Origin: Candidatus Saccharimonadota bacterium
GTDB lineage: Bacteria > Patescibacteriota > Saccharimonadia > Saccharimonadales > Saccharimonadaceae
NCBI GenBank assembly: GCA_017519305.1
Contig: JAFWSN010000001.1
Span: forward strand, 246,296-310,295
Reading direction: 5' to 3'
DNA: 64,000 bases
Of the stretch, positions 39,339-40,919 are shown piece by piece (position 1 is the stretch's first letter; every line of letters starts with the position of its first letter). The position numbers were made by a program, and so were the translations under genes. The notes under the pieces were generated by a model. The model saw only the letters and a list, made by a program, of their open reading frames with translations, had not been told where the DNA came from and did not search any database.

Positions 39339-39367
39339 TTGACTTTTTAATGCTTATGCTTTATTAT
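39339..39367 (+). promoter_or_regulatory. Consensus promoter of the second noncoding transcript
   Basis: TTGACT, 17 nt, TATTAT. GCTTATG (39352-39358) and CATAAGC (39371-39377) form an inverted repeat around the -10, a possible operator. Confidence 0.7.
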
Positions 39368-39373
39368 AAACAT

Positions 39374-39531
39374 AAGCTGATACGCTTCACAGGGGTTCCA
39401 CTGAGTAATTAGTGGAGTGTGGAGACTTACATTAAAAACAAAAACAGCGGATTAAAACAAAACAATGTGCCCCAAGGGTGGGCGCGCATCAGCGCAAAAA
39501 GAGAGACCTGTCGCAAGACGTCTCTTTTTTT
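39374..39531 (+). ncRNA. Candidate ncRNA or T-box-like leader before glyS, about 160 nt
   Basis: Fills most of the 259-nt gap between obg and glyS. Visible helices: TCCACT/AGTGGA within a larger CTTCACA/TGTGGAG arm (39384-39424), TGTGCCC/GGGCGCG (39466-39486), and the terminator with a GCAA tetraloop. AAGGGTGG followed by GCGCG at 39474-39486 resembles the T-box antiterminator motif, and the next gene is an aminoacyl-tRNA synthetase. Against a T-box: the motif lacks the AC of UGGNACC, no specifier loop is clear, and glyS has its own -10 box after the terminator. A stand-alone RNA is at least as likely. Confidence 0.6.
39501..39531 (+). terminator. Terminator of the transcript before glyS
   Basis: AGAGAC, inner GTC-GCAA-GAC, GTCTCT, TTTTTTT. 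Confidence 0.85.
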
Positions 39532-39541
39532 ATCTCAAAAA

Positions 39542-39550
39542 TGGTATAAT
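39542..39550 (+). promoter_or_regulatory. Leaderless extended -10 promoter of glyS
   Basis: TGG-TATAAT, 7 nt to the ATG. Confidence 0.7.
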
Positions 39551-39557
39551 AATTAAC

Positions 39558-40919
39558 ATGAACAACTTAGACGACATTGTAAGCTTATGTAAACGCCGCG
39601 GCTTTATTTTTCCAGGTTCCGACGTCTACGGCGGCATGGCCGGTACGTGGGACTTTGGCCCGCTCGGCGTCACTCTCAAAAACAACATTGTAAATACCTG
39701 GTGGAATTATTGGGTCGACCAGCGTGATGATATGTTTGGTATCGACGCCGCTATTTTAATGAATCCTCGCACCTGGGTCGCTTCCGGTCACACTTCTACT
39801 TTTGCCGATCCATTGGTCGAATGTAAAGAGTGTCACTCTCGTTTCCGTGCCGACAAGCTTGTCGACGGCTATTCCGAAAGCATCACCACCGAAGAATTTC
39901 TAGCCCAAAACCCAGTCTGTCCAGTCTGTGGCAAAACCAACTGGAGCAGCATCCGTAAATTCAACATGATGTTCACTACCCACGTAGGCGCTGTGACGCC
40001 AGAAGATGCCGAAGGCGACGAAGCCGCCAAAGAACTCTTGAACCGTAGCACCACCTATCTCCGCCCAGAAACTGCTCAGGGTATCTTCACCAACTATAAA
40101 AATGTCGTCGACACCATTTATCCAAACCTTCCATTTGGCCTTTGCCAACAGGGTAAATCTTTCCGCAACGAAATCTCTCCACGCGACTTCATCTTGCGCG
40201 ACCGCGAATGTTCGCAGCTCGAAATTGAGTATTTTGTGCACCCAGATACTTGGTCAGAAAACTTCGACAAAATCCTCGAAGAATACCGTGGCTTCTTAAA
40301 AGACAAAATGGGTCTTCCAACCGAAAAAATCCACGAACTCGAAGTTCCAGCCGAAGACCGCGCCCACTATTCAAAGCGCACCGTCGATATTATGTTCGAT
40401 TATCCAAACGGCGAGGAAGAGCTCATGGGCATCGCCTATCGCACAGATTTTGATTTGCAAAACATCGCTCGCGAATCCGGCAAAAACATGGATTACCGCG
40501 ATAAGAACACTGGCGAGACTTTCGTTCCGCACGTCATCGAACCATCCATTGGTGTCGAACGTCTATTCCTGGCCGTGCTTAGCACTGCCTACACCGAAGA
40601 CGAGATTAATGGTGAAAAACGTATCGTTTTGAGACTCCCAGAAAATCTCGCACCGTACAAATTCTGCGTTTCACCACTACTTAAAAACAAACCGGAACTC
40701 GTCGAGAAAGCTAAAACTGTCTACGAAAAACTCAAAGCCAAATATACTTTTGTAACTTGGGATGATTCCGGCAACATTGGTAAACGCTATCGCAAGCAAG
40801 ACGAAATCGGTACGCCAAAATGCGTCGTCATCGACTTCGATACCCTAGAAGATGGCACTGTCACCGTCCGCGACCGCGACACTGCCGAGCAAGTTCGCGT
40901 CAAGATTGAAGAATTATAG
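39558..40919 (+). CDS. glyS: Glycyl-tRNA synthetase, dimeric (eukaryote/Gram-positive) type
   Basis: 453-aa class II synthetase charging tRNA-Gly. GFIFPGSDVYGGMAGTWDFGPLG opens motif 1; two Cys pairs CKECHSRF and CPVCGKTNW form the zinc knuckle; RPETAQGIF and FRNEISPRDFILRDRE are motif 2; EPSIGVERLF is motif 3; the anticodon domain ends at the stop. The start at 39558 gives the family N-terminus; an in-frame ATG at 39465 would lie inside the upstream terminator transcript and is rejected. SD-led ABC genes follow at 12 nt. Confidence 0.96.
   Translation: MNNLDDIVSLCKRRGFIFPGSDVYGGMAGTWDFGPLGVTLKNNIVNTWWNYWVDQRDDMFGIDAAILMNPRTWVASGHTSTFADPLVECKECHSRFRADKLVDGYSESITTEEFLAQNPVCPVCGKTNWSSIRKFNMMFTTHVGAVTPEDAEGDEAAKELLNRSTTYLRPETAQGIFTNYKNVVDTIYPNLPFGLCQQGKSFRNEISPRDFILRDRECSQLEIEYFVHPDTWSENFDKILEEYRGFLKDKMGLPTEKIHELEVPAEDRAHYSKRTVDIMFDYPNGEEELMGIAYRTDFDLQNIARESGKNMDYRDKNTGETFVPHVIEPSIGVERLFLAVLSTAYTEDEINGEKRIVLRLPENLAPYKFCVSPLLKNKPELVEKAKTVYEKLKAKYTFVTWDDSGNIGKRYRKQDEIGTPKCVVIDFDTLEDGTVTVRDRDTAEQVRVKIEEL

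Follow-up and report, generated by a model that had tools for sequence, protein, structure and literature searches.

The window, a 64,000-nt stretch of DNA from a Candidatus Saccharimonadota bacterium, contains a short region immediately upstream of glyS on the forward strand. Within this region, we identified a conserved RNA core flanked by its own putative transcription signals. The features, all on the + strand, are as follows:

39339-39367, +: promoter of the RNA, comprising −35 TTGACT (39339-39344), a 17-nt spacer and −10 TATTAT (39362-39367); identified from the sequence, the genus alignment and homologous loci
39373-39493, +: conserved RNA core of 121 nt, representing the order's single-copy RNA family; delimited by blastn, the genus alignment and models R1 and R2
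39376-39385, +: 5' strand of helix P1, GCUGAUACGC, paired with 39484-39493; compensatory changes at all 10 pairs among 50 sequences
39392-39395, +: 5' strand of helix P2, GGGG, paired with 39470-39473; all 4 pairs covary
39397-39416, +: lineage-specific hairpin, UCCACUGA..UUAGUGGA, found in genus g32 as well as in the window's genus
39433-39464, +: apical loop, A-rich and unpaired in the consensus, whose two A-rich motifs persist across families (alignment A5)
39470-39473, +: 3' strand of P2, CCCC; covariation
39476-39483, +: 3'-side segment GGGUGGGC linking P2 to P1, nearly invariant; cross-family alignment
39484-39493, +: 3' strand of P1, GCGCAUCAGC; covariation
39500-39532, +: intrinsic terminator of the RNA, a hairpin with a T-run; sequence and fold, with a terminator-like element at 70 of 96 homologous loci
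39542-39550, +: extended −10, TGGTATAAT, of a separate, probably leaderless glyS promoter; sequence
39558-40919, +: glyS, encoding glycyl-tRNA synthetase, an incidental neighbour of the RNA; ORF and locus comparison

The elements described in a sequence-only reading of this locus were all present. Specifically, the TTGACT-17-TATTAT promoter occurs at 39339-39367, AAGGGTGG at 39474-39481 is followed by GCGCG at 39482-39486, and the transcript, in which that reading had seen several helices, has a compact fold with a predicted energy of −52.2 kcal/mol (z = −4.3 versus 200 shuffles). The terminator, which is visible in the fold, was missed by a simple terminator scan, probably owing to the loop limit of the scan; terminators are conserved among the homologues. 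Similarly, the separate −10 of glyS lies beyond the terminator, as had been noted, and ends 7 nt before the ATG at 39558, a spacing (39542-39560) at which glyS appears to be leaderless. The conserved RNA itself is confined to 39373-39493; the span considered earlier, 39339-39550, also took in the promoter, the terminator and the −10 of glyS.

The decisive support came from comparison: transcription signals were evaluated at 96 homologous loci. A promoter-like site was found within 50 nt upstream of the RNA at 67 loci, as compared with 12% in shuffles, and the −10 ended 5 to 7 nt before the conserved start in most loci. The terminator-like elements at 70 loci lay within 80 nt downstream, versus 1% in shuffles. 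In an alignment of 30 same-genus loci, most positions inside the core were invariant, while only CTTGAC and the −10 region stood out beyond it. These data support transcription from a dedicated sigma-70-type promoter, with a predicted start near 39373 and an end at the RNA's own terminator. The predicted RNA would be about 160 nt long in the window and roughly 110-165 nt elsewhere.

The distribution of the RNA was established using blastn and covariance models. A blastn search of 60 relatives recovered the RNA from 34 of the 36 same-genus genomes (83-95% identity), with no convincing match in any other family. Model R1, built from the 30 aligned same-genus loci, detected the RNA in 84 of the 88 same-genus genomes sampled, with a strong match in genus g32 and full-length matches (~85-91 nt) across many of the family's other genera. 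Forty R1 matches were fetched and realigned. A second model, R2, contained P1 and P2 only. The two models matched the RNA of the window's own genome at E-values of 3e-31 (R1) and 7e-21 (R2). Of the 294 genomes of the class, 228 had an R2 match, and only one of these lies outside the order. In addition to f1, the window's family, they covered f6, f7, f8, f9, f12, f16, f18, f19, f23, f26, f28, f30-f34 and f36. Thus, most members of the order, spanning at least 18 families, have the RNA, usually as one copy. Because synteny is shared, the distant matches appear to be of common descent.

Outside the Saccharibacteria order, the covariance models found nothing convincing in the other orders of the class or in 379 genomes of the phylum. 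Weak matches in G417 and five phylum genomes (E-values of 0.002-0.06) were judged to be chance, as was a 16-bit match in a contig of 74% GC titled Variovorax. Two contigs titled Nomurabacteria scored well with R2; exact-pattern matches in named genomes carried titles that were almost all Candidatus Saccharibacteria or TM7. Two doubtful matches, L166 (G087, 28.7 bits) and L167 (G417, 27.4 bits), were excluded from the final alignment; one of these is AT-rich and one is from another order. Carriage by phages or plasmids was rejected based on the lack of RNA matches in viral contigs and plasmids. No Rfam family matched the RNA, and a scan of the region that listed E-values up to 10 gave chance matches only. 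We found no description of the RNA in the open-access literature; an earlier one in subscription journals is possible.

The predicted architecture, which the covariation supports, comprises a closing helix P1 of 10 pairs, an asymmetric internal loop, a short helix P2 of 4 pairs and a large A-rich loop. Fitting of the alignments to the model favours the named helices; with this caveat, compensatory changes were found in 10 of the 14 P1 and P2 pairs among 40 sequences mainly of one family, in 13 among 31 sequences mainly of other families, none of which was used to build R2, and in all 14 in the combined set of 50 diverse sequences. This combined result, with 109 cells, was reached in none of 500 shuffles and was far above that of slid controls. 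The changes are plain in the sequences themselves: examples are CUGGUACGC/GCGUAACAG, UCGUGCGC/GCGCACGA and CGGGUGU/ACACCCG in P1, and GGGG/CCCC, GCGG/CCGC and GGCU/AGCC in P2. The A-rich loop and the almost invariant GGUGGGC in the 3' strand of the internal loop are the most constant parts of the RNA. Beyond the window's genus and g32, the hairpin at 39397-39416 is replaced by a short loop or a different hairpin. A potential protein-coding ORF from 39465 was rejected: the frame is lost in homologues, where the distance from CCCC to GGG varies by 1-2 nt.

Additional pairings differ between lineages. A helix of at least 4 bp around the 3' strand of P2 (P3, often CACCC/GGGUG) could form in 23 of 29 sequences from outside f1, as compared with 11.7 expected when the loop was shuffled. 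Together with P2, it would make a pseudoknot in many of these families. Within f1, P3 could form in 9 of 21 sequences versus 8.3 expected, and so is unsupported there. According to the fold, UUCAC is able to pair with GUGGG instead in the window's genus. Finally, a 5' hairpin competing with P1 is possible in 20 of 41 members of f1, versus 10.6 expected from shuffles, which is suggestive only.

The genes surrounding the RNA vary. Among the 30 same-genus loci, glyS adjoins the RNA in the window genome alone; most copies have obgE close by, which may be on either side and either strand. Downstream genes in the genus include trmD and obgE, as well as uvrB, which was recognized by eye from start codons. 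In other families, the upstream gene is usually ligA (33 loci in all); tRNA-Ala(GGC) is often nearby. In many genera of f1 outside the window's genus, the RNA is followed by a terminator and then by a −10 and tRNA-Ala(GGC). Such variety speaks against regulation in cis, and we therefore conclude from these comparisons that the predicted RNA does not regulate glyS in cis. A role as a leader of tRNA-Ala was likewise rejected: the terminator and a separate −10 intervene, and tRNA-Ala is sometimes convergent with the RNA, as in L155, L156 and L165.

A gene for an RRM RNA-binding protein lies beside the RNA at 22 loci. In many genera of the family (L061-L096), this gene is divergent from the adjoining RNA. 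None of the 36 genomes sampled from the window's genus had a detectable RRM protein, and almost all of these genomes carry the RNA; the protein was accordingly rejected as an obligate partner. In this genus, the RNA has the longer hairpin.

The sequence-only reading had offered either a degenerate T-box or a stand-alone RNA; the latter part held up and the former did not. The likeness to a T-box is real at the level of letters. The RNA contains AGGGUGG and then CGCG, a terminator follows, and in the window genome alone a synthetase gene lies downstream. As that reading had remarked, UGGNACC is incomplete: AGGGUGG is present and the NACC part is missing. The defining features of a T-box, however, fail. 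We take the T-box core to be AGGGUGGNACCGCG with a UGGN bulge; across families, only GGUGGGC is constant in the RNA. Moreover, the UGG stands on the 3' side of the hairpin, in contrast to the 5' side in a T-box. A Stem I with a specifier codon has no room in a core of 75-125 nt whose P1 and P2 are fixed by covariation, and the RNA lacks the mutually exclusive antiterminator and terminator of a T-box. A check with the T-box model had been suggested; RF00230 gave no match in the window region up to an E-value of 10, and none in 16 distant homologous loci up to an E-value of 3. As to the suggested look for conservation upstream of glyS in relatives, the window's locus is the only one of the 30 same-genus loci with glyS adjacent. 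Instead of leading an amino-acid-related gene, the RNA of relatives neighbours obgE, trmD, ligA and tRNA-Ala, with no link to synthetase genes. Thus, the RNA is conserved away from glyS and has no T-box score, the combination that had been named beforehand as speaking against a T-box. The AGGGUGG..CGCG lookalike is, in the predicted structure, the conserved 3' side of the P2-P1 loop together with the start of the 3' strand of P1. A degenerate T-box or other cis leader, of glyS or, in other families, of tRNA-Ala, is suggested by this lookalike, by the position before glyS and by the terminator; with glyS and tRNA-Ala each having its own −10 past the terminator and tRNA-Ala convergent at three loci, we consider such a leader extremely improbable. 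The occurrence of a T-box-like GGGUGG motif ahead of a synthetase gene can be coincidence.

The same motif allows for a sensor acting in trans, in which the invariant GGUGG, complementary to the terminal CCACC of tRNA-Ala and several other tRNAs, would detect uncharged tRNA 3' ends. Consistent with this, the UGG is invariant, AGGGUGG is identical to what we take to be part of the T-box core, and the long-standing neighbour tRNA-Ala(GGC) ends in CUCCACCA. However, in many families GGGUG can take part in P3, GUGGG can pair with UUCAC in the window's genus, and nothing resembling a Stem I is present to read an anticodon. Covariation is uninformative here since tRNA ends are invariant. We therefore regard a sensor of tRNA ends as very improbable, and hold equally little expectation of its more specific form, a stand-alone T-box-like RNA whose UGG loop would catch uncharged tRNAs by their CCA ends, with tRNA-Ala as the ancestral target. 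If true, the latter would provide these amino-acid-dependent parasites with a tRNA-charging sensor tied to no single gene.

Known housekeeping RNAs were also considered. The RNA resembles 6S RNA (RF00013) and SRP RNA (RF00169, RF01854) in being single-copy and stand-alone with a closing stem; it differs in having no match to their covariance models, no 6S bubble and no SRP domain IV. RNase P RNA was rejected as an identity, the RF00010 match being located elsewhere in the window genome (C2:17160-17487). The SRP RNA models, small and large, had no match in 20-30 genomes, although the first-look filter of these housekeeping-RNA searches may miss weak members: the large SRP model gave no match in Bacillus subtilis. 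A search of the window genome for the domain IV motif of SRP RNA was negative. Further, the M domain of Ffh (PF02978), which binds SRP RNA, was undetected in 20 genomes of the order, the window genome and 19 relatives, while 14 of 14 controls matched. SRP RNA was thus rejected as an identity. SRP subunits have been reported to be absent in many CPR bacteria (PMC8080830).

For 6S RNA, RF00013 had no match in the window genome or in 17 genus mates, with controls matching, and none in the window region. A sub-threshold 6S match of 32.4 bits was observed in another family at L101 (G037:C51:16563-16716), ~400 nt from RNase P RNA and on the same strand. An RNA that stands in for 6S, binding RNA polymerase and tuning transcription, would suit a single-copy, housekeeping-type gene in a genus in which RF00013 is undetected. 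Nevertheless, the RNA has no long terminal stem and no central bubble resembling an open promoter, and the 6S-like match near RNase P RNA in G037 suggests that the order may keep a separate 6S. A 6S stand-in is accordingly quite improbable.

A trans-acting antisense sRNA, in which the G-rich loop (GGGUGGG) or the A-rich loop would pair with mRNAs and alter their translation or decay, is harder to dismiss: it would leave traces similar to those seen here. In particular, the RNA has its own promoter and terminator, conserved single-stranded segments and varied neighbours. Antisense sRNAs are usually less deeply conserved than order-wide, and the conservation of the present RNA across the order, with helices kept by covariation, is deeper than usual for this class. 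In addition, the complement GCCCACCC is not enriched within the window, where its one match is the RNA itself versus 0.93 expected. We consider an antisense role unlikely, while giving it some weight.

Genome comparison shows a conserved, structured RNA gene that is usually single-copy, has its own predicted signals, occurs across the order, matches no Rfam family and is not tied to glyS. Covarying helices, the promoter and terminator, and the varied neighbours are those expected of a stand-alone non-coding RNA. Expression is inferred because the promoter and terminator are conserved. Given its single copy, vertical inheritance, presence across the order and strongly conserved loops, the RNA probably has a housekeeping-type function in trans, most likely as part of a ribonucleoprotein. 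We assign a probability of approximately 0.6 to this overall reading, a single-copy, stand-alone, structured non-coding RNA gene specific to the Saccharibacteria order whose product works in trans in this capacity. In the proposed mechanism, the RNA would be made from its sigma-70-type promoter (~39373), end at its own terminator, and fold into P1, the asymmetric loop with GGUGGGC, P2 and the A-rich loop, with the P3 pseudoknot in many other families. It would then act in trans as the RNA part of a ribonucleoprotein, with a partner, whether a protein, the ribosome or RNA polymerase, reading the GGUGGGC loop and the A-rich loop.

As a family, the predicted RNA is new and without an Rfam entry; its kind, the stand-alone structured non-coding RNA, is already known. 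It is probably a core RNA of the parasitic Saccharibacteria. These organisms have tiny genomes, seemingly without a canonical SRP and, in the window's genus, without a detectable canonical 6S RNA. An RNA that the order keeps in one copy per genome, and whose structure shows strong covariation, likely matters to these epiparasites, and is testable in cultured strains.

Two further comparisons were made. In many families outside f1, the putative P2/P3 pairing and the A-rich connecting loop recall H-type pseudoknot RNAs with A-rich loops; unlike these, the present RNA is a free-standing gene with its own terminator and the additional closing helix P1. LOOT RNA (RF03000), an Rfam sRNA family, differs in sequence and had no match to the window region or the distant homologues. 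At L075, the LOOT RNA (781-898, − strand, 75.5 bits) and the present RNA occur as separate elements near each other and near tRNA-Ala.
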